Of a DNA stretch of 37,003 nucleotides, positions 740 to 14,128 are shown in pieces. Source of the stretch: an uncultured Ruminobacter sp. (GTDB lineage Bacteria; Pseudomonadota; Gammaproteobacteria; Enterobacterales; Succinivibrionaceae); assembly GCA_902764345.1 (NCBI GenBank), contig CACWVT010000033.1:1-37003 (forward strand), read 5' to 3'. The position numbers and the translations under genes are program-made. The notes beneath the pieces were generated by a model, which was not told the origin of the DNA, searched no databases, and worked only from the letters and a program-made list of their open reading frames with translations. Within the stretch, counting starts at the first letter, position 1. Each line of letters begins with the position of its first letter.

Positions 740-1270
740 TTATATTTTTCTGCATCTGAAGCGGCAGATTCTGTCTCCGTTGGCCCAGCAGTTGATTTCC
801 GTTACCTCGTATTTGTCTCCGGTATACTGCAGCAAAATCCCTTCAAGGAAGCCCTCATCGTAGTCGCATATCATCTCATTGTTAGGAGGCAGACCACTGC
901 AGTCAAGATCATCTGCGAGGGTGACTATTATTTCACTGAAATCAGCCTCAACATGCTCTACATTTAGTATACCGATACGGAGCTTATAGAGGATCTTATA
1001 GAGGTCTGTCATAAAGTCCTTGAAGCTTGCGTTGGTATTCAGATGCTTTTTAGTAAACTCAATACCGGCAATGGCTCCTGCCTCTTTAAAAATGGCATTG
1101 GATGTTTCGGCACCATAGCGTTTGGTGAGTGCCTCAATTAGTGAGAACTCCAGCTGACGGTATACTTCAACAGGAAGGTGATCTCCCAGATCCGGCCGAC
1201 CTTCCTTAATGTTGCCGAGCTTTTCCCATGAGAATTTCTTGTCATTTGCAGATCTGAAAATGTTGACCAT
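740..1270 (-). CDS. V4R (4-vinyl reductase) domain protein
   Basis: A 176-residue soluble protein. The C-terminal third (about 130-176) has the V4R pattern: a Cys-Asp-Tyr-Asp-Glu-Gly segment, then hydrophobic strands, then Asn-Cys-Trp-Ala-Asn-Gly-Asp-Arg-Ile-Cys-Arg-Phe, where the GDxxCxF end is typical of the small-molecule or metal-binding V4R fold. The N-terminal half is helical and resembles other stand-alone V4R proteins. No output domain is fused, so it may be a sensor, a chaperone-like partner or a haem/ligand binder; the sequence does not say which. AAGGAT lies upstream of the ATG. It is a single gene, 356 bp from yqeY. Confidence 0.75.
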   Translation of the reverse strand: MVNIFRSANDKKFSWEKLGNIKEGRPDLGDHLPVEVYRQLEFSLIEALTKRYGAETSNAIFKEAGAIAGIEFTKKHLNTNASFKDFMTDLYKILYKLRIGILNVEHVEADFSEIIVTLADDLDCSGLPPNNEMICDYDEGFLEGILLQYTGDKYEVTEINCWANGDRICRFRCRKI

Positions 1271-3901: not shown

Positions 3902-6688
3902 TCAGTAAGACAACTCTGAAAATCTCACTATGTTTTCTACAGCGTTTTTTATTGTGTCGGCGGTGTAGTCTTTTTGGTTTTGGTCATGAAGCATGTAATT
4001 TCTGCATCCGCAGATTGCCTTATTTAAGTCGCGATACTGTGTTTGCCTGCTTTTTGATAAGTCAAGATATGGATAAAGGTGTAAAAGTTCATATGCGAAC
4101 AGTACGGCGTTTAGATAATCCCTCTGATTTAGGTAAAAAAGAGTGCGATCCTTAATTATTTGTTTTTTCTTCTCAGGAGAATTCTGTTTAATGTCTGAGA
4201 ACTCAAGCCATGAGAGATGTCTTTCAATTTTGTCTGAAAGTTTATTAAGGAGCTGATTGTTTTCTGACAGTTCATTGTATTTTGCTTCAATTGATTTAAA
4301 CAGTTTTGCTGATTTGTCAAACTGATTCATGTACTCGAAATAGGCAATATCGTTGATCATATCTGATATATCAGCGCCGTTATCTGCAAAAATACCGTTC
4401 ATGCTCATAAGGTTCTTTGTTCTATTGTATGTGGAGATTTCAAACGAATATTTTGTCAGCTTCAGCATTTCAGTTATTTTATTTATTGTTCCGGTTGCTG
4501 GCTGTGGGGAAAATTCTGCCAGCAGAGGCTGTATTTGCCTGTATGCATTACGGAGATTATCCTCATTAAGATTGTGCAGGGATTCTGTCATAAACCTACA
4601 TGTTGATTTCGTAAGCTCGTCATTAATTGCCGTTCTAGGAGGAATCATGTCTGCATAATAGATATTATCCATGCTTCTTCTGCCGAGAGTACACATAAGT
4701 TGTACAGCTCCGTACATAACTATAGGAAACTGTCTGAAACAGTGAGTGATGTCCATTGATATACGTACGTTGTCGGCCAATTTTTCATTCAGAAAATCGT
4801 ATATGGCGAGATAGTCCTCGTATGTGGAGCAGGATTCTTCGGTAAGGAATAATAACAGTTCAAAACCCAGCGTATTTCGTATATCCCTAAGTCTTTCGTT
4901 AATGTCTGAAAGCATTTGTTTTGGGACTTTGCCGTTACTGTTAAATACGTCTTTTATATATCCGCAAGCTGATTGAATTTCGTCGATGTCAGGTTTTAGT
5001 GAATTAAGATTATCTGCAAATTCATTCCACGCGCTTGTTTCCGTGCCTATAATTACGAGCTGTTTTAAACTGCTGATGGTTTCGGCAAGTTGGAGGGATA
5101 TGAAATTTGACGGAGGCAATTCTTTACCGTCAAGTTTGTAGACAGTTTTGTTATAGCTGCCGTTTCCTAAAAATGATATCAGAACGTTGTCAGTTATCAT
5201 GGTAGCAGGTGTTTCTGATATTTCTATACCAAAAGCGGTAAAAATTTCTTTTAGGCTGGCCCTGAGAGATGAATAAGAACTGCATGATCTGCAAATCTTG
5301 GTATCCGGATTGTCAAAGTTTTGGGATTTATCATTCTTATGAACCAGAGTTGCACGAATTGACTGCGTAAACAAATCATAAAGCTTGTAGTTCTGTTTCC
5401 CGTTTTCGGATTTTATTATGTTGTTTGCGATATTCTGTTTAATGGCTTGGGGGTCTTCACTTTTGATGGAAAGGTATTTTGCTTCTATGTAATATTCAAA
5501 GGCACAGCATGCACGTATCATGTCGCCGGTATTATAGTAGTGCCCTGTCAGTTTTCTGTAATAGTCTTTGTCGGATGTTGTTTGGGCAGTGTGAACCTTG
5601 TCATTAATGCTTTTTTTTAGACATCGCAGATATTTGTTGTTTTCAAGGTGCTTTTCAAGAAGAAGTGGATCTATCTGCTTGAGATTGGCGTAAGACTGAG
5701 AGAATTTACAGATATTTTCGAAATCTGCAGATCTCTTGAGTTTTGTTTTGATATCAGATTCTTCCTTGGAGGTGCTTTGAAAGTACCCAAGCAGACTGTC
5801 GATGTTTCCGGAGAATCTGTACTGGTTTATCTTTGTTGCCATGTCCGTAAATTCTTTCATCGGGGCAACGGTAAGCACTGTCCCCTGATACAGAATGTTT
5901 TCTTTTGGGTACTGCTGTAATATTGTCTTAATTTTTTCTGATATGCTTTCTATCTGTTCATAACCTGCTGTGTGAGTGAGCCCGGCGTATCTTGCGAGAA
6001 TCTCATCAATGAGAGGCTTCTTAATTTTTTCCGGTACAAGTGAATTCATTTTTGCATAGAAAATGTTTTTTATACGGATGTCATCTTTTATGTTCTGCAG
6101 ACATGAAACTGTTAAAAACGACATAATCGGACTGACGCGAAGTCCGTTAGTGATGTCAATATAAATGTCTGAATGGTTTTCTATGAGCGGAAGAATATTA
6201 TCGAAAATGAGAGTCTGACTTTCAGGTGATTGGAAAGAGTATTCATGAATTATTGCGTTGATACGTAAACTGATTTTTTTTGTCATAAAAAACAGATTAA
6301 TCATCTGTTCGCGTCTTTTTATGTCCGCAACATCCGGATCCCTGTTTTCACCGTGTTGACTGTCATTTTCCGTCAGATTAGTACCGGTGAAGATGTCTGT
6401 TTCTTTTTGGGTAATTAATCCGGCTCGTAGCAGGGCTTCACCGAGATTTGTAAAAAATATATTCCAGATACTTTTTAGTGTGCCGAGTATTATGATTTGG
6501 TTCGGGGTTTTCTTTGTGTCACAAAGATATTCATATACGGAAAGACCGAAGCAATTAGATTCGTATGTGTGTTTGTTGTCAAAAACATATTTGGTTTTAT
6601 TGAAGGAGGCGTTTCCCAAACTGGCAATCAGTACGGTGTTTCGGTTGTCGGAGCTGATGTTTGCTGAAGGAATATTAAGAGTGTTCAT
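3902..6688 (-). CDS. Tandem CARF-HEPN-CARF-HEPN protein (Csx1/TM1812 'DxTHG' family)
   Basis: A 928-residue protein built from two homologous halves. Half one has VLIASLGNASFNKTKY at 19-34, IIILGT at 65-70, DITNGLR at 178-184 and RATLVH at 445-450. Half two has VLISFLGNGSYNKTVY at 502-517, LVIIGT at 544-549, DITHCFR at 646-652 and RNYMLH at 896-901. The first motifs of each half mark the CARF Rossmann fold of the Cas_DxTHG/TM1812 family, and the Rx4H motifs are HEPN ribonuclease active sites. Relatives of about 400-460 residues are homodimers that cleave RNA when cyclic oligoadenylate from Cas10 binds the CARF pair. Here both protomers are in one chain, offset by about 483 residues. Neither half keeps a perfect DxTHG: one has Asn for His, the other Cys for Gly. 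The gene is more AT-rich than its neighbours, has a weak ribosome-binding site, and is divergent from cas6. The family assignment is strong; activity is inferred. Confidence 0.87.
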   Translation of the reverse strand: MNTLNIPSANISSDNRNTVLIASLGNASFNKTKYVFDNKHTYESNCFGLSVYEYLCDTKKTPNQIIILGTLKSIWNIFFTNLGEALLRAGLITQKETDIFTGTNLTENDSQHGENRDPDVADIKRREQMINLFFMTKKISLRINAIIHEYSFQSPESQTLIFDNILPLIENHSDIYIDITNGLRVSPIMSFLTVSCLQNIKDDIRIKNIFYAKMNSLVPEKIKKPLIDEILARYAGLTHTAGYEQIESISEKIKTILQQYPKENILYQGTVLTVAPMKEFTDMATKINQYRFSGNIDSLLGYFQSTSKEESDIKTKLKRSADFENICKFSQSYANLKQIDPLLLEKHLENNKYLRCLKKSINDKVHTAQTTSDKDYYRKLTGHYYNTGDMIRACCAFEYYIEAKYLSIKSEDPQAIKQNIANNIIKSENGKQNYKLYDLFTQSIRATLVHKNDKSQNFDNPDTKICRSCSSYSSLRASLKEIFTAFGIEISETPATMITDNVLISFLGNGSYNKTVYKLDGKELPPSNFISLQLAETISSLKQLVIIGTETSAWNEFADNLNSLKPDIDEIQSACGYIKDVFNSNGKVPKQMLSDINERLRDIRNTLGFELLLFLTEESCSTYEDYLAIYDFLNEKLADNVRISMDITHCFRQFPIVMYGAVQLMCTLGRRSMDNIYYADMIPPRTAINDELTKSTCRFMTESLHNLNEDNLRNAYRQIQPLLAEFSPQPATGTINKITEMLKLTKYSFEISTYNRTKNLMSMNGIFADNGADISDMINDIAYFEYMNQFDKSAKLFKSIEAKYNELSENNQLLNKLSDKIERHLSWLEFSDIKQNSPEKKKQIIKDRTLFYLNQRDYLNAVLFAYELLHLYPYLDLSKSRQTQYRDLNKAICGCRNYMLHDQNQKDYTADTIKNAVENIVRFSELSY

Positions 6689-7142: not shown

Positions 7143-8300
7143 ATGATGAATTTGGCTCTACCTCTGATAAAAATACGATTGTTTTTTCGTGCCGTATCGG
7201 ATATCTGTTTTCCGTCATATTCCGGTTCAACATTCAGGGGCGCTTTCGGCATTCATCTGCGGGAATCATTCTGCAGTACCTTGGAAAGAAAGTGCTGTGA
7301 ATGTAATAAGATCGGCACATGCGTCTATGCCGGAGTTTTTGAGGGAACCAGAGTCTTAAGTCAGGAAGGGGCTGAATCCGTTTCAGTGGATGTTCCCAAT
7401 GCCTATGTCATAGAACCTTTGCCGATTGACAGGGATTATGTTGCGTCCGGCGGTGTTTTTTCAATAGACATCATTCTTTTCGGAAAGGTGTCTGCTGAAC
7501 TGAACAACGTGGTAACGGCTTTCATAAAGGCTGGTTTCACGGGATTTACCGAATCCAGGGGAAGGGCTGAACTGATAAAGGTCTGTCAGATTTTTGAGGA
7601 TGACGTAAGGGTTCTGTTTGACAGGAGTAATCCATCCGTGTCCGGTAAACCTGTCAGTACTTATTCTCTCAGTGTTAATTCATCGTTTAAAGGCTGCCGT
7701 ATAATTCTCGAAACACCTTTAAGGATTGTTCATAAAAAGAAAAACATAAGTGTTGAGAATTTTACTCCCGGGATGTTTCTCAACGGAATTATAAGAAGGG
7801 TGAGAATTCTTCTCGCAAATCATGCCGAGGATGTCAGAAATTCAGGTTCTGACTTAATCCGTCCTTACTGTCCTGACTCGGAAAATTACAGATGTTACAG
7901 CGGTCTTGGTCATGTTCATGCTGAAACAAATGTTTCTGGGCCTCAGACTCTGACGGGATCCGGGGAACGGAGTGATACAGTTCCCTATTATGCTGAAAGA
8001 AGAAAGGCCGAGCTTGAAAAGCTTCCGGAATGGTCAAGACCTTTCTTTGAGCATGACGATGCCGAACTCAGTTCCAAGCTTGATACGATAGTAATTAACA
8101 ACAGAAAACTGCACTGGTTTGACTGGGCACGTCTTTCAAGCAGACAGCAGAGAAAAATAAAGCTTGGCGGTATCATGGGAACCTTTGAAATTGAGGGAGA
8201 TCTTGAGCTCCTGGCTCTTTTTATCAGAGCGGGGGAGATTATGCATGCCGGAAAGGCTGCAGTCATGGGACTCGGTAAATACAGGACTGAGTGGTTTTAA
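7143..8300 (+). CDS. cas6: CRISPR pre-crRNA processing endoribonuclease, Cas6 (RAMP)
   Basis: A 385-residue RAMP protein. The N-terminal region has FRGAFGIHLRESF followed by a CxxC...C-V-Y-A-G-V-F-E segment, the usual signature of the type III-associated Cas6 family. The C-terminal region ends with HAGKAAVMGLGKYR, the glycine-rich RAMP loop. Cas6 cuts the repeat RNA at the base of its hairpin and leaves an 8-nt 5' handle; the transcribed repeat of the array ends ATTGAAAC, which fits. It is the only crRNA-processing gene seen and stands alone between the CARF-HEPN gene and a convergent DUF5131 gene. The start is ATGATG with AAAAGG upstream; either ATG could be used. Confidence 0.88.
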   Translation: MMNLALPLIKIRLFFRAVSDICFPSYSGSTFRGAFGIHLRESFCSTLERKCCECNKIGTCVYAGVFEGTRVLSQEGAESVSVDVPNAYVIEPLPIDRDYVASGGVFSIDIILFGKVSAELNNVVTAFIKAGFTGFTESRGRAELIKVCQIFEDDVRVLFDRSNPSVSGKPVSTYSLSVNSSFKGCRIILETPLRIVHKKKNISVENFTPGMFLNGIIRRVRILLANHAEDVRNSGSDLIRPYCPDSENYRCYSGLGHVHAETNVSGPQTLTGSGERSDTVPYYAERRKAELEKLPEWSRPFFEHDDAELSSKLDTIVINNRKLHWFDWARLSSRQQRKIKLGGIMGTFEIEGDLELLALFIRAGEIMHAGKAAVMGLGKYRTEWF

Positions 8301-8421: not shown

Positions 8422-9327
8422 TCAGTTATCATACTGAGAATAGTCAGGGGCAGGGCTCCCGCATTTTCCGCATCGGCTGCATCCGTTGCAGGCGATTCTC
8501 ATGCTGCACTTGTCGCAGCGTTCAATGTATGACGGCTTATACATACTGCCATCGGATATTGGAAATCCCAGATTGTCATGAAGCCTGAATTCAATGGGTT
8601 TTCCCTGAAAACTTAATCCAGACAGAAAGGCCTGTTCCGTCTGCAGCAGATTGCCTTCTATGGTATAGGTTCTGCCGTCCTTAACGAATTTTCTGCCCGT
8701 TCCGCAGAAAACGAAGGTAACGTTGTGTCTTCTGCATTCATCACTGAGTTTTTTTACCCATTCATAATGGTTTGGTCTGGAACCGTCGTAGTTTTCACCG
8801 TCACAGAGAACCTGTTCAAGCTGACCGGTTTCAAGGTATTTCTCAATGGTTACAGGACCGATTAATGGAGCACACATGATACCTTTGTGTTTAAACGGCA
8901 GATCAAGAAGAACGGGGATGCGTTCATCGGTTCTTTTCTGATTCTCGCAGCTTACATTGAAAAACACGTTTTCCCATCCGTCTCCCCAGTCTGTCGGCAG
9001 GCATGACGCTACTCTCTCCGGACGTTTGGTAAGTAGAAAGAACTTAACGTCCGGGCGCTGATGCATTATTCTCCAGGCATCCTGACGCCAGGCGTCGGCC
9101 TCCTCCAGAAAAAAGTCTGATGTCATGCAGACTCTGAGCATTTCTCCGCTTTGAACCTTGAAATTACCGTTACGATCCTTCGACAGCGGATAATTAAATC
9201 CTGCTCCGTTTCTGCTGATGTCGGCCCCGCTTCTGTCTCTCATCCTGTCCAGAAAAAACATGTAGCAGTTTCGACATCCTTCACTGCATTTGCGGCAACC
9301 ATGCCACGGATTCCAAATGTCATGCAT
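8422..9327 (-). CDS. DUF5131 (phage Gp37/Gp68-type) radical-SAM-like protein
   Basis: A 301-residue protein starting MHDIWNPWHGCRKCSEGCRN, the DUF5131 opening. C14-x3-C18-x2-C21 is a radical-SAM-type CX3CX2C motif, with a further Cys11. The middle carries the family blocks FFLLTKRPER, WENVFFNVSCENQ and KHKGIMCAPLIGPV. The C terminus has a second cluster, C271, C274, C280, C283, C286 and C289, which could hold another iron-sulphur cluster or zinc. Related genes occur in phages and mobile or defence loci, sometimes beside three-Cys-motif (TcmP) partners, which are absent here. The substrate is unknown. The gene is inside the CRISPR locus and convergent with cas6. Confidence 0.85.
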   Translation of the reverse strand: MHDIWNPWHGCRKCSEGCRNCYMFFLDRMRDRSGADISRNGAGFNYPLSKDRNGNFKVQSGEMLRVCMTSDFFLEEADAWRQDAWRIMHQRPDVKFFLLTKRPERVASCLPTDWGDGWENVFFNVSCENQKRTDERIPVLLDLPFKHKGIMCAPLIGPVTIEKYLETGQLEQVLCDGENYDGSRPNHYEWVKKLSDECRRHNVTFVFCGTGRKFVKDGRTYTIEGNLLQTEQAFLSGLSFQGKPIEFRLHDNLGFPISDGSMYKPSYIERCDKCSMRIACNGCSRCGKCGSPAPDYSQYDN

Positions 9328-9984
9328 ATATGTTTATCTCATACTGAAAGAGTAGATGTGTTTATCTCGGATGAGGCATGAATTTCTGATGACCTCTGTT
9401 CAGATAATCATACCCGTAAATATGTTGAATAGTTTTGCATAAAAATAATTTTTTGAAATATTGCTCATTTTTTATACAAGGTAATTATAAGGAAAAGCTG
9501 AAGCTGATAAAATTGTAATTTCCTGATTATTAAATTTTGGGAAACAACATGTAATGAAAGCAAATATAAAAATAAATAATGTTTATTTGTATCTATGCAT
9601 TATTTATTACTTGTCTGCCTTTATTATCGGAAAGTTGTCTTACATAAAAATATCGTCAGTAAAAAAGACTGATGTTTCTTTCATTTGCACTTTCGGACGT
9701 CGTTTCCGCACTCCCGTGTATCCTTTCTGTCCGGTGTATGCAGAGTGCTGCAGCTTGGTATGTTTTTCTGTATTCAGATTAGTGAATGCATGACGTACTA
9801 ATATCCGTCCGAAGATATTGGAACATTGTTACCTTAGGCAGCAGTGTTCGGATTTGACTTTGAAATCCTTTGGAGAAGGGCGTGAACGGGCACTATTGTG
9901 CTGTAATGCACAATGTTCCGTTTTCATTCAGTTTTCAACATCCTTTCTGATTTCAGGTCATATTCGCACAAAAGGGGGAATTTT
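9328..9984. other. Intergenic region between DUF5131 gene and cas1
   Basis: A 657-bp AT-rich region expected to hold the divergent promoters of the DUF5131 gene and cas1. A frame of 79 codons at 9554-9793 lacks a recognisable product and is not called. A 7-bp inverted repeat lies at 9895-9914. The cas1 reading frame stays open upstream to 9913, but family alignment and the ribosome-binding site favour 9985. Confidence 0.5.
9895..9914. promoter_or_regulatory. Inverted repeat upstream of cas1
   Basis: ATTGTGC (9895-9901) and GCACAAT (9908-9914) are perfect complements around a 6-nt centre, about 70 nt before the cas1 start. The form suits a dimeric regulator site or a small hairpin in the leader; nothing in the sequence identifies the protein. 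Confidence 0.35.
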
Positions 9985-11010
9985 ATGTCAACTTTGTATT
10001 TATGTTCTCAAAAGACGAAACTTCGTTTTATGGACAATCATTTTGTTCTGACCACATTCGAGGATGAGTACGGCAGAAGCTATGAGGTTAAGCGCGTTTC
10101 CGGAAGACAGATTGATAGCGTGCTTGCCTTCGGCATAATTGCCATAACACGTGAGGCTTTAACCTACTGCATGAGTAACGGTATTACCGTTTCTTATTTT
10201 TCGTCAAACGGCAAATACATCGGTTCCTCCGTGTCAAACGAAGCAAAATGTTCAGAGTTAAAACTCTGTCAGTATGCCAGGTATTTCAATGATGTACACA
10301 GACTTTATCTTGCCAAGATGATTGTCATGGGCAAAATCCGTAATCAGATAGCCACGCTTAAATACTTCAGTCATAACAGGGATAATGCCGCTGAGCAGGT
10401 GGAGCAGGTCATATCTCAGATGGAAATGCACATGAAAAGAATCGGTTGTGCCGAAAGTGTAAGAGAGCTGGACGGTATAGAAGGTGTGAGCGCCAGTCTT
10501 TATTTCGGTATCTGGAGAAGATTTCTGCCTGGGGAATTAGGTTTTGTCAAAAGAATAAAACATCCGGCAACGGATCCCGTGAATGCAATGCTTTCCCTGG
10601 GGTATACCCTCCTTACCAATTTAATCAGGGGAATTGCAGTTGCCAGAGGTCTGGAACCATCCATCGGATATTTGCATGAGCAGCATTCAAACAGACCTTC
10701 ACTTGCCTGTGATCTGATTGAAGAGTTTCGGGCTCCTATAGTGGACAGATTTGTGGTTCGCGGATGTAATCTTCAGCAGTTCAGATCGGAGATGTTTTCT
10801 GAAAATGATCCGGTAAAGGGAGTCCGATTTAAAGGTGACTTTATCAGAGCATTTTTCTCAAGCTGGGAAATGTTTATTTCAAAGAATGTCAGGGAATACG
10901 GAGTTGCCGAAGAGGACAGAAAAGACCTGATTTCTCTAATTGTAAGGCAGGTGGACAGAATAGCAGGGGTTATCCGTAACGGAGGAGTGTATGAACCATT
11001 CAGGTTCTGA
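9985..11010 (+). CDS. cas1: CRISPR integrase Cas1
   Basis: A 341-residue Cas1, the integrase that inserts spacers at the leader end with Cas2. The N-terminal beta domain starts MSTLYLCSQKTKLRF. In the helical domain the metal-binding catalytic set is visible: Glu166 in DGIEGVSA, His231 in GYLHEQHSNRPSL, and the acidic group Asp243/Glu246/Glu247 in DLIEEFR. The start is placed at 9985 because AAGGGGG lies 7-13 nt upstream and the protein then has normal length; an in-frame upstream extension has no family match. cas2 follows after 147 bp on the same strand. The active-site residues are intact. Confidence 0.95.
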   Translation: MSTLYLCSQKTKLRFMDNHFVLTTFEDEYGRSYEVKRVSGRQIDSVLAFGIIAITREALTYCMSNGITVSYFSSNGKYIGSSVSNEAKCSELKLCQYARYFNDVHRLYLAKMIVMGKIRNQIATLKYFSHNRDNAAEQVEQVISQMEMHMKRIGCAESVRELDGIEGVSASLYFGIWRRFLPGELGFVKRIKHPATDPVNAMLSLGYTLLTNLIRGIAVARGLEPSIGYLHEQHSNRPSLACDLIEEFRAPIVDRFVVRGCNLQQFRSEMFSENDPVKGVRFKGDFIRAFFSSWEMFISKNVREYGVAEEDRKDLISLIVRQVDRIAGVIRNGGVYEPFRF

Positions 11011-11046: not shown

Positions 11047-11157
11047 GGCGTCTTAATGAAATTTCATCCTGTAACACTGGTATCTTGAGGAATATGTGTA
11101 AACAGAGTCCTAATTCGTGCCGTGAAATCTGCAGGCGATATGATAGGTGGTGTGATG

Positions 11158-11454
11158 ATGTCTGATAATAATCCAAAATACGTCATCTGCTACGATGTAA
11201 GCGATGACAAAAGGCGTCGCAGTCTGGTGAGGTGTCTGAATTTCTACGGAGACAGAGTTCAAGGTTCAGTCTTCGAGGCTTTTCTTGACCCTGATTTGCT
11301 TGATGAAATGCAGCTCAAAATATCCAAAATTATTGATGACAGAACAGACAGTGTATTCATTTATCCCTTAAACGGAGTTACCGAAGCTCTTGTAAAGAGG
11401 ATGGGTGCGAATAACTATGATGTACCTGAAAGATCATCATTTTTCATTATGTAG
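11158..11454 (+). CDS. cas2: CRISPR adaptation protein Cas2
   Basis: A 98-residue Cas2. The ferredoxin-like fold starts with NPKYVICYDVSDDKRR, whose Asp after the first strand is the conserved acidic residue of the family, followed by FYGDRVQGSVFEAFL. Cas2 bridges two Cas1 dimers in the integration complex. Two adjacent ATG codons (11155 and 11158) follow an AGGTGG ribosome-binding site; an in-frame upstream extension to 11122 has no family match. The gene ends 118 bp before the first degenerate CRISPR repeat fragment. Confidence 0.93.
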   Translation: MSDNNPKYVICYDVSDDKRRRSLVRCLNFYGDRVQGSVFEAFLDPDLLDEMQLKISKIIDDRTDSVFIYPLNGVTEALVKRMGANNYDVPERSSFFIM

Positions 11455-11598: not shown

Positions 11599-11667
11599 TT
11601 AAAGACTTACAATTCTTAAATCCGGAAACCAAAACACAGTTTCAATCCCTCTAAGCGAGGGCATACC

Positions 11668-11706
11668 TCAGTAACACTCCTTATTTGATGGGTTTAAATC
11701 ATTCAT
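11668..11706 (-). CDS. 12-residue mini-ORF running into the repeat (copy 1)
   Basis: Encodes MNDLNPSNKECY and stops at TGA inside the repeat at 11668. AGGAG (11716-11720) lies 9 nt before the ATG. It follows the hydrophobic mini-ORF by 27 nt on the same strand. It may be the start of a gene cut off by the repeat rather than a complete peptide. Confidence 0.3.
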   Translation of the reverse strand: MNDLNPSNKECY

Positions 11707-11733
11707 TATTGTGATCTCCTGCGGTTGTGGTGA

Positions 11734-11790
11734 TTAGTTTAGCGCTTTCATAATGAGCAGAGCAAGCGCGAAAAGTATCAAATAGGTCAT
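11734..11790 (-). CDS. 18-residue hydrophobic mini-ORF in the array (copy 1)
   Basis: Encodes MTYLILFALALLIMKALN, a single hydrophobic helix with a lysine near its end, resembling small membrane-acting peptides in size and composition only. An AAGGAG box at 11799-11804 is spaced 8 nt from the ATG, an optimal ribosome-binding site. A GC-rich hairpin lies just upstream at the repeat edge. Expression is not shown. It could be a type I toxin-like peptide, a captured phage gene or chance. Confidence 0.45.
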   Translation of the reverse strand: MTYLILFALALLIMKALN

Positions 11791-11944
11791 ATTCCGTTCT
11801 CCTTTTCCTTTTCTGGCGGGGCTTCCAGCTTCCCCAGTTTCAATCCCTCTAACTGAGGGCATACCTCAGCAACAATGTTACATGCTGGTGCTGAGGTGTT
11901 TCATAGTATTGGAGAGTTTCAATCCCTCTAAGCGAGGGCATACC

Positions 11945-11983
11945 TCAGTAACACTCCTTATTTGATAGGGGTAAATCATTCAT
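11945..11983 (-). CDS. 12-residue mini-ORF running into the repeat (copy 2)
   Basis: Encodes MNDLPLSNKECY. It differs from copy 1 by two residues, and the AGGAG box has become ATGAG, so this frame looks less constrained than the hydrophobic one. Confidence 0.22.
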   Translation of the reverse strand: MNDLPLSNKECY

Positions 11984-12010
11984 TATTGTGATCTCATGCG
12001 GTTGTGGTGA

Positions 12011-12067
12011 TTAGTTTAGCGCTTTCATAATGAGCAGAGCAAGTGCGAAAAGTATCAAATAGCTCAT
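12011..12067 (-). CDS. 18-residue hydrophobic mini-ORF in the array (copy 2)
   Basis: Second copy, encoding MSYLILFALALLIMKALN. Compared with copy 1 it has one Thr-to-Ser change and one silent change, and its ribosome-binding site is intact. Retention of frame and start signal since the duplication is weak evidence for function, since the copies are young. Confidence 0.45.
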   Translation of the reverse strand: MSYLILFALALLIMKALN

Positions 12068-13071
12068 ATTCCGTTCTCCTTTTCCTTTTCTGGCGGGGCT
12101 TCTAGCTTCCCCGGTTTCAATCCCCCTAACTGAGGGCATACCTCAGCAACTTGATACTGACTTTGTTTGGTTTGTCGGAAGTACAGGGTTTCAATCCCTC
12201 TAACCGAGGGCATACCTCAGCAACCAGAATTACCAATCCGACAGTACGCCAAATCCAGGAGTTACAGTTTCAATCCCTCTAACCGAGGGCATACCTCAGC
12301 AACGCCCCATATGCGGCAGATGAGTACGCGTTCTAATTAGAGTTTCAATCCCTCTAACCGAGGGCATACCTCAGCAACAACAACGTAGTATTCTATTTCA
12401 AGTCATTTGATGAACTGTTTCAATCCCTCTAACCGAGGGCATACCTCAGTAACGTTCTCTAAGGGTAATTCTACTAGTTATACTCTCTATAAGATGTTTC
12501 AATCCCTCTAACCGAGGGCATACCTCAGTAACATGAAGTTCTCTAAAGGAACTTCAGTAAGTTACACTTTGTTTCAATCCCTCTAACCGAGGGCATACCT
12601 CAGTAACCTGATGAACTGAACGATTTCTTAAATAAGGCAATCGAGAGTGGTTTCAATCCCTCTAACCGAGGGCATACCTCAGTAACTAACAAGCTGTTTC
12701 CTGCCGGATTTGCAGTTGAAGGGTTTCAATCCCTCTAACCGAGGGCATACCTCAGTAACAAAGCAATAGCATCAGGTATCAATGCAGTAGCTGAAGGCTG
12801 GTTTCAATCCCTCTAACCGAGGGCATACCTCAGTAACTACTGATGAAGAGTTCTACCAACCAGAAGTGTATTTTAAGGTTTCAATCCCTCTAACCGAGGG
12901 CATACCTCAGTAACTGAACAGGCAAGTGAGTGGGCTGACGAACATCCTGAACTGGTTTCAATCCCTCTAACCGAGGGCATACCTCAGTAACCCTTAACAC
13001 TAAAGTAGCTGTTGTGAAAAACACAGTGTTTCAATCCCTCTAACCGAGGGCATACCTCAGTAACTGTTACA

Positions 13072-13093
13072 CAGGGATACGAAAGTATCCCTA
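13072..13093. repeat. Hairpin with GAAA tetraloop inside a spacer
   Basis: Within the spacer at 13065-13101, AGGGATAC and GTATCCCT form a perfect 8-bp stem closed by GAAA. The spacer appears to have been taken from a structured element of its source. Confidence 0.6.
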
Positions 13094-14128
13094 TTCTAAG
13101 GGTTTCAATCCCTCTAACCGAGGGCATACCTCAGTAACATTCAGCAAGAACTTTACAGGCTGCTCAGGCTTTAGGTTTCAATCCCTCTAACCGAGGGCAT
13201 ACCTCAGTAACTTCAGAATGATTCTGCATAGCAGTATCAAATTCTTTAGCGTTTCAATCCCTCTAACCGAGGGCATACCTCAGTAACGTTTGATATCAGA
13301 CCAATTCATGATGAATTTGCATGTCGTTTCAATCCCTCTAACCGAGGGCATACCTCAGTAACTTGGGGTGATACCCAATCTGGAAAGAAACACTGTACAT
13401 TCGTTTCAATCCCTCTAACCGAGGGCATACCTCAGTAACATAAGGAGGAGCTAGAGATGAGAAGACTTATTATAAATAGTTTCAATCCCTCTAACCGAGG
13501 GCATACCTCAGTAACAGATGGCTGCCTTTTTGGTTTCATGTTGTAGAGATATGACGTTTCAATCCCTCTAACCGAGGGCATACCTCAGTAACCTTCTGCA
13601 GAAGGTTTAAGCACAGACTTCTCATCGAAGAAGGTTTCAATCCCTCTAACCGAGGGCATACCTCAGTAACTAGAACACTTCCATGAATTACAGAAAGATG
13701 TCACTTTAGTGTTTCAATCCCTCTAACCGAGGGCATACCTCAGTAACAACAAGACCAGCTTAACCTATAAGATATGTTCTAAAGGTGTTTCAATCCCTCT
13801 AACCGAGGGCATACCTCAGTAACGTCTGCTGCTGAATGGGCTGATGCTCATCCTGAGGTTGTTTCAATCCCTCTAACCGAGGGCATACCTCAGTAACTTA
13901 ATAGCTGAACTGTATCAGAGTAATCTGTTAGATTAGTTTCAATCCCTCTAACCGAGGGCATACCTCAGTAACTCTTATCATGCATTCTTAATGGAGACTA
14001 TTATGGTACACATGTTTCAATCCCTCTAACCGAGGGCATACCTCAGTAACTTCTCATATTCTTGGTTCTTTTAGTGCAAACCAAAGAGATGGTTTCAATC
14101 CCTCTAACCGAGGGCATACCTCAGTAAC

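Follow-up and report, generated by a model that had tools for sequence, protein, structure and literature searches.

Csx1 proteins are described as carrying one CARF and one HEPN domain per chain and acting as dimers, with cyclic tetra-adenylate (cA4) as the default activator (PMC11229360), and homodimeric CARF sensors are reported to favour two-fold symmetric rings, for example cA4 and cyclic hexa-adenylate (cA6) (PMC13187428). A ribonuclease (RNase) with the order CARF-HEPN-CARF-HEPN, Csm6-2 of Actinomyces procaprae, was reported in 2024 (PMC11229360), where it is termed a fused Csm6 in which the arginine and histidine of HEPN1 lie 73 residues apart and the R-x4-6-H motif is given for HEPN2 only. 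Cryo-electron microscopy structures (9W3U, 9W3V and 9W3W) followed in 2026; this report describes an intramolecular dimer assembled to a tetramer, with an asymmetric pocket preferring cyclic penta-adenylate (cA5), and states that activity needs residues of both HEPNs (PMC13187428). The activator is cA6 according to the 2024 report, and cA5, with cA6 as a weak one, according to that of 2026. Here we describe a tandem gene of the same domain order from an uncultured Ruminobacter sp. (Succinivibrionaceae), probably a rumen bacterium, found in a stretch of 37,003 nucleotides (assembly GCA_902764345.1, contig CACWVT010000033.1), the whole of which is referred to as the window. The gene, at 3902-6688 on the reverse strand, encodes a single polypeptide made up of two homologous halves, each a CARF-HEPN unit from the TM1812/Csx1 (CARF2) lineage. 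It is conserved, and its product is probably a functional one-chain RNase of Csx1 type that belongs to a type III CRISPR system.

Read as an open reading frame, the gene has an ATG start, encodes 928 residues and contains no internal stop. The first-pass annotation, made from the letters alone, had described a series of motifs that occurs twice at a distance of about 483 residues. The series is indeed present twice, but the second copy reads FLGN and not SLGN, and the distance is correct for the first motif only, falling to 479, 468 and 451 residues at the later ones. The pairs are S-L-G-N-A-S-F-N-K-T-K-Y (residues 23-34) and F-L-G-N-G-S-Y-N-K-T-V-Y (506-517), I-L-G-T (67-70) and I-I-G-T (546-549), DITNGLR (178-184) and DITHCFR (646-652), and, as HEPN motifs of the form R-x4-H, RATLVH (445-450; window 5339-5356) and RNYMLH (896-901; 3986-4003). 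The R-x4-6-H motif of TM1812/Csx1 proteins is thus found twice (R445-H450 and R896-H901), and instead of the one CARF and one HEPN that define this family there are two of each per chain. Direct comparison of the halves by BLASTP gave an E-value of 1.7e-15, with 25% identity over 354 positions, and their Smith-Waterman score of 211 was reached by none of 1000 shuffles (44 +/- 7), by which a chance origin of the internal repeat was rejected.

The proposal of a Csx1/TM1812-type protein with both domains doubled in a single chain is backed by profile matches. TIGR02221 (TM1812/Csx1) matches two stretches in frame, with 122.3 bits for the whole protein and a cut-off of 76.25; the best PADLOC model is CARF2--CARF_HEPN (3.5e-63), and Pfam Csx1_CARF passes with 25.9 bits against a cut-off of 24.7. 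Both halves matched TM1812 and CARF2 models, and an unrelated family as the source of the second half was rejected. An assembly artefact of one genome was likewise rejected, since the tandem recurs in named records, e.g. Succinimonas amylolytica DSM 2873. The limits given for CARF1, HEPN1 and HEPN2 rely on profiles built from an 11-row alignment (A1) that includes the window protein and also served as the family search profile, so that family members match by construction; all domains lie on the reverse strand. They comprise CARF1 (residues 15-230; 5999-6646), matched by PADLOC CARF2-type models, HEPN1 with linker helices (262-490; 5219-5905), where the PADLOC CARF_HEPN-type model PDLC01843 spans residues 18-451, CARF2 (495-690; 4619-5206), with Pfam Csx1_CARF at 503-666 and TIGR02221 at 502-681, and HEPN2 with linker helices (725-928; 3905-4516), where the PADLOC Csx1/Csm6 model PDLC01032 spans 501-896.

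The two CARF domains differ in the DxTHG motif, and the pattern is common to the 12 family members in which motifs were counted. Left out of this count were fragments, i.e. a cut copy (L038/L049) and pieces in L035, L037 and L039; of the 12 that were counted, L036/L048 is truncated by a contig end and misses its first residues, and the final motif of RUG520 (L027/L041) is encoded in a different frame. The CARF1 motif reads D-x-[TS]-x-G, with the glycine in all 12 and, in place of the last x, N in seven, Y in four and H in one, whereas CARF2 reads DITH[CS], with the histidine in all 12, followed by C in six and S in six. In the window protein these are DITNG (178-182; 6143-6157), in which the histidine is lost and the glycine kept, and DITHC (646-650; 4739-4753), in which the histidine is kept and cysteine replaces the glycine. 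The three nearest single-chain genes have DVTHG, and in an unbiased sample of the phylum 11 of 12 single-chain genes (13 loci, two being pieces of one gene) have D-x-T-H-G, the remaining one D-x-T-S-G; by this comparison of sequences the loss of the CARF1 histidine is clear. A motif scan gave 24 single-chain rows (20 DITHS, three DITHC and one DVTHG), a biased set because the search motif included DITH[CS], three of the 24 being neighbours not picked by the motif. The divergence of the halves that the first-pass annotation had pointed out is a property of the family; its suggestion of one regulatory and one catalytic CARF stays a conjecture.

The HEPN motifs are kept in most members. HEPN1 is complete in 11 of the 12 members and HEPN2 is in frame in ten, the exceptions being a lost HEPN1 arginine in the second copy of one genome (G011, taken to be S. 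amylolytica), a HEPN2 histidine lost by substitution in one Tb.RUG.285 copy (RKDIFF) and the HEPN2 motif of RUG520, which lies in another frame. Such single losses, together with the absence of the CARF1 histidine from 11 of 12 members, would be expected if the halves worked asymmetrically, one HEPN or CARF acting and the other half serving as a scaffold that drifts towards loss. We regard this as fairly unlikely: both motifs are intact in the window protein, the counts of 11/12 and 10/12 imply that neither half is the consistent loser, and Csm6-2 is reported to depend on both of its HEPNs.

The tandem gene is divergent from cas6 (7143-8300, forward strand, 385 residues; Pfam CRISPR_Cas6 7.4e-10, PADLOC Cas6 3.6e-65). 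Nearby on the same strand lie cas1 (9913-11010, 365 residues), the single match in the genome of the Cas1 model searched, cas2 (11122-11454, 110 residues; PADLOC 3.2e-20) and a CRISPR array with a 37-nucleotide repeat, of which 30 copies are listed (11639-14128). The last 19 nucleotides of the repeat occur in 25 exact copies in the genome, all on the window contig. Another contig of the genome (C8) carries an operon in which Cas10 is accompanied by Csx10 and Cas7 genes (PADLOC type III-D) together with a gene similar to a relative's Csx19, and this III-D Cas10 has the GGDD cyclase motif. The small III-D Cas7 of this operon is split in two overlapping frames (L025, 10732-10992 and 10962-11219, forward strand), either by sequencing error or by decay, and is in one frame in a relative (L036). 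In one relative the tandem gene itself adjoins a III-D operon.

Cas10 was found in all ten tandem genomes and in four of the 46 others of the family (Fisher 2.8e-8, uncorrected for kinship), where a true Cas10 was taken to be a match over the cut-off that covers nearly the full profile and has GGDD, a definition set after the table had been seen. Within the genus of the window the two genomes with a tandem gene have Cas10 and the two without it lack Cas10. The type is III-D in nine of the ten tandem genomes and III-A in the tenth. Ten other genomes had weaker or partial Cas10 matches, nine with a GGDEF/GGEEF-type motif and one with none. Three of the four Cas10 genomes that have no tandem gene (G037, G048, G050 and G051; L146-L150) carry a full-length Csm6-type match, and in the fourth a CARF4-type model is weakly matched (1.7e-8) next to Cas10, whereas only one of the ten tandem genomes has a full-length Csm6-type match, as if the two kinds of gene replaced each other in Cas10 genomes of this family. 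In the window's genome, the two CARF effector models searched matched no other gene. This, the two intact HEPN motifs and the loss of the CARF1 histidine make it highly unlikely that the protein is mainly a ring nuclease or sink of cyclic oligoadenylate that limits signalling by another effector, even though CARF2 keeps the DxTHG histidine and the structural matches include ring nucleases with a CARF domain.

Structure prediction, recommended at the outset, gave a window model in which CARF1 has predicted local distance difference test (pLDDT) values mostly above 80, except for the loop 105-115. In the model of a relative, both halves match the CARF-HEPN fold of Csx1-Crn2, in agreement with the fold expected for each half. 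Csm6-2 was not among the best 50 Foldseek matches listed and appeared in second-look alignments only, where 9w3w was the top match of the window model. We infer that the chain folds as an internal, i.e. intramolecular, dimer.

Taking together the homology of the halves, the family membership, the HEPN motifs, the shared CARF difference and the co-occurrence with Cas10, we propose, with a probability of about 0.75, that the tandem protein is an ancillary effector of a type III system, a Csx1-type RNase in which the customary homodimer has become one chain, and that cyclic oligoadenylate activates it by binding in a single asymmetric pocket within the chain. The III-D complex would be guided by CRISPR RNAs from the window array, processed by the adjoining Cas6, and its GGDD-containing Cas10, on meeting invader RNA, would make cyclic oligoadenylate. 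The ring would bind in one pocket to which CARF1 and CARF2 of the same chain both contribute, and closure of this pocket would join HEPN1 and HEPN2 into one RNase centre, which would cut RNA non-specifically and halt the cell. As each CARF has a sequence of its own, this pocket would be asymmetric, with the DxTHG histidine absent on the CARF1 side and present on that of CARF2. The activating ring could be cA4, the default of Csx1, or else, to judge by Csm6-2, cA5 or cA6.

Several observations weigh against this proposal. At the level of the protein, the single TIGR02221 matches in the genome search score 73 and 54.5 bits, each below the cut-off; the HEPN regions of the window model are poor (pLDDT below 50 at 450-458 and 894-913); and whole-chain matches to Csm6-2 have root-mean-square deviations of 7.9-13.8 A, which means that the models do not settle how the domains are arranged. 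DITHC and DITHS are also common in single-chain TM1812 genes, and for this reason the C or S of CARF2 may be ancestral rather than acquired after fusion. At the level of the genomes, Cas10 lies outside the window, two of the ten Cas10 genes are interrupted (in two frames in G002, broken in G008), and the association is not corrected for kinship, the count by genus being 4/4 against 1/10 (p 0.005). Finally, flanks were read for 11 copies: five have cas genes or an array close by (in the window, L030, L034 and L036, and in L028, which has just an array), and the other six show neither in flanks of 12-19.5 kb, where cas genes were recognized by similarity to those seen here and arrays by a repeat script, with no use of profiles. 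These six would suit a toxin or defence gene of HEPN type that acts independently of CRISPR and stands beside cas genes by accident, but the presence of GGDD Cas10 in all ten tandem genomes, and its distribution within the window's genus, leave such an origin with a very remote chance.

A search with A1 identified tandem relatives in ten of 56 genomes of the window's family, taken to be the Succinivibrionaceae, belonging to four of 14 genera. In seven of these ten genomes one or more frames are of full or nearly full length; the gene is broken in G008, and the copies of G030 and G034 are cut by contig ends. In G008 the tandem gene (L035, 2206-5254, reverse strand) and the III-A-like Cas10 locus (L145) are both in several frames. 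The relatives have lengths of 935-1109 residues. When 84,980 species genomes were scanned by sequence pattern, 34 named loci emerged, of which 11 are tandem (two cut by contig ends), in records named Succinivibrionaceae bacterium (five), Aeromonadales (two), proteobacterium (two), Succinimonas amylolytica (one) and Ruminobacter (one); no second CARF-HEPN half was found at the other 23. Among 398 genomes sampled across the phylum 13 match TIGR02221, with two matches in one tandem-length frame in the window's genome only, since in the other genome with two matches (G558) these are pieces in separate frames. Of 394 genomes sampled from the order, eight match A1; two of these eight belong to other families, and their genes are of the single-chain kind. 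At one locus (L058) there is an additional CARF-like match, which is weak (E=0.3). No relative was found in a scan of genome contigs with the window protein alone, nor among the plasmids, phages and viral contigs searched, and a sequence search of the PDB with the window protein, the tandem profile or two single-chain relatives gave nothing of this family.

In a first tree of 51 rows the N-terminal halves grouped together (96/89), as did the C-terminal halves (97/97), but long branches met. A reduced tree, from which three long-branched pairs and one long single-chain gene were dropped, places the N and C halves together on one side of a branch (99/98) and joins them to three single-chain genes of their own order, one of the same genus (100/99). 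This suggests that the family arose by duplication and fusion of a local single-chain Csx1 of its own order. In the reduced tree the N halves group again (96/92), whereas the C halves do so in 39% of bootstrap trees; the C half of the window protein falls in no well-supported C group, and each half of this protein has the other as its most identical row (24%). Because the C halves do not group, the tree allows one or several fusions, and a separate fusion may have occurred in the window's lineage. Single-chain CARF genes of this lineage also occur in pairs on one strand (L065, 9298-12265, forward strand; also L051 and L059); the pair of L065 overlaps by 29 bases, and such pairs are a possible pre-fusion state.

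Other features were observed around these loci. Within the window array, a stretch of 236 nucleotides is duplicated (11638-11873 and 11915-12150, 96% identity, 277 nucleotides apart). Between cas6 and cas1, a DUF5131 protein is encoded on the reverse strand (8422-9327; Pfam 1.1e-38, PADLOC PDC-M30B), and beside the III-D operon of the genome lies a reverse transcriptase gene matching RT_UG17 (PADLOC 2.1e-108; L025, 6117-8045, reverse strand). The contig probably starts within a ribosomal RNA (rRNA) operon, as a 5S rRNA gene (Rfam) is found at 160-274 and the contig end (1-77) is 95% identical to 197-273. A V4R-domain protein (740-1270, reverse strand; Pfam 1.5e-14) is encoded near these rRNA genes.

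A further step, which we consider possible but doubtful, would be that the family represents a second independent CARF-HEPN fusion, derived from Csx1, in which the unlike CARFs form a pocket for a ring that has no two-fold symmetry (cA5, cyclic tri-adenylate, or a mixed or modified ring). If so, fusing a dimer and then breaking its symmetry would be a convergent route to new messengers, marked by a DxTHG histidine that is missing from the first CARF only; in Csm6-2 the fused, asymmetric pair was shown to be able to prefer cA5. This fused family of Csx1 lineage has about a dozen diverged members, and single-chain relatives occur in the same order; it would allow the general effect of fusion on the choice of messenger to be studied, along with the residues responsible, and the natural variants that have lost one HEPN motif could show whether catalysis requires both halves. 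Should the ligand be plain cA4, the protein would still be a useful one-chain form of Csx1.

Compared with known systems, the closest in architecture is Csm6-2, which, like the tandem protein, has CARF-HEPN-CARF-HEPN in one polypeptide. Csm6-2 is encoded in a type III-D locus; for the tandem gene of the window the III-D operon is on another contig of the same genome. The statement of the first-pass annotation that no tandem of this form had been described is thus superseded by the two reports on Csm6-2, and the single-chain kind is already known. In the open-licence literature, no paper titled on a tandem Csx1 was among the matches listed, and the term CARF-HEPN-CARF led to one paper only, on Csm6-2. 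The shared domain order, the presence of a type III-D system in either case and the structural match to 9w3w could also mean that the tandem is a diverged member of the Csm6-2 family that stems from the same fusion event. This is distinctly unlikely: its halves match CARF2/TM1812 models and join single-chain genes of their own order in a tree that contains no Csm6-2 rows, and no sequence match to the Csm6-2 chain appeared at E up to 10, in a library in which the presence of that chain is unconfirmed. Moreover, Csm6-2 is termed a fused Csm6, has about 795 residues and comes from a host of another bacterial phylum, with the HEPN1 arginine and histidine far apart, unlike the R-x4-H spacing in both HEPNs of the tandem family. 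The tandem is probably a Csx1-derived fusion separate from Csm6-2. With Csx1/TM1812 proteins (TIGR02221; Marinitoga Csx1-Crn2, 8y6z and 8y7g) both halves share the family profile, but the domains are doubled and the DxTHG motifs unlike. Can1 (6sce), with its nuclease-like and PD-(D/E)xK domains, nicks DNA, whereas the window protein has HEPN motifs, and none of its Pfam, NCBIfam and PADLOC matches with E up to 1 is to a PD-(D/E)xK family. What is new here is the Csx1 lineage of the fusion, the host group and the fixed difference between CARF1 and CARF2.
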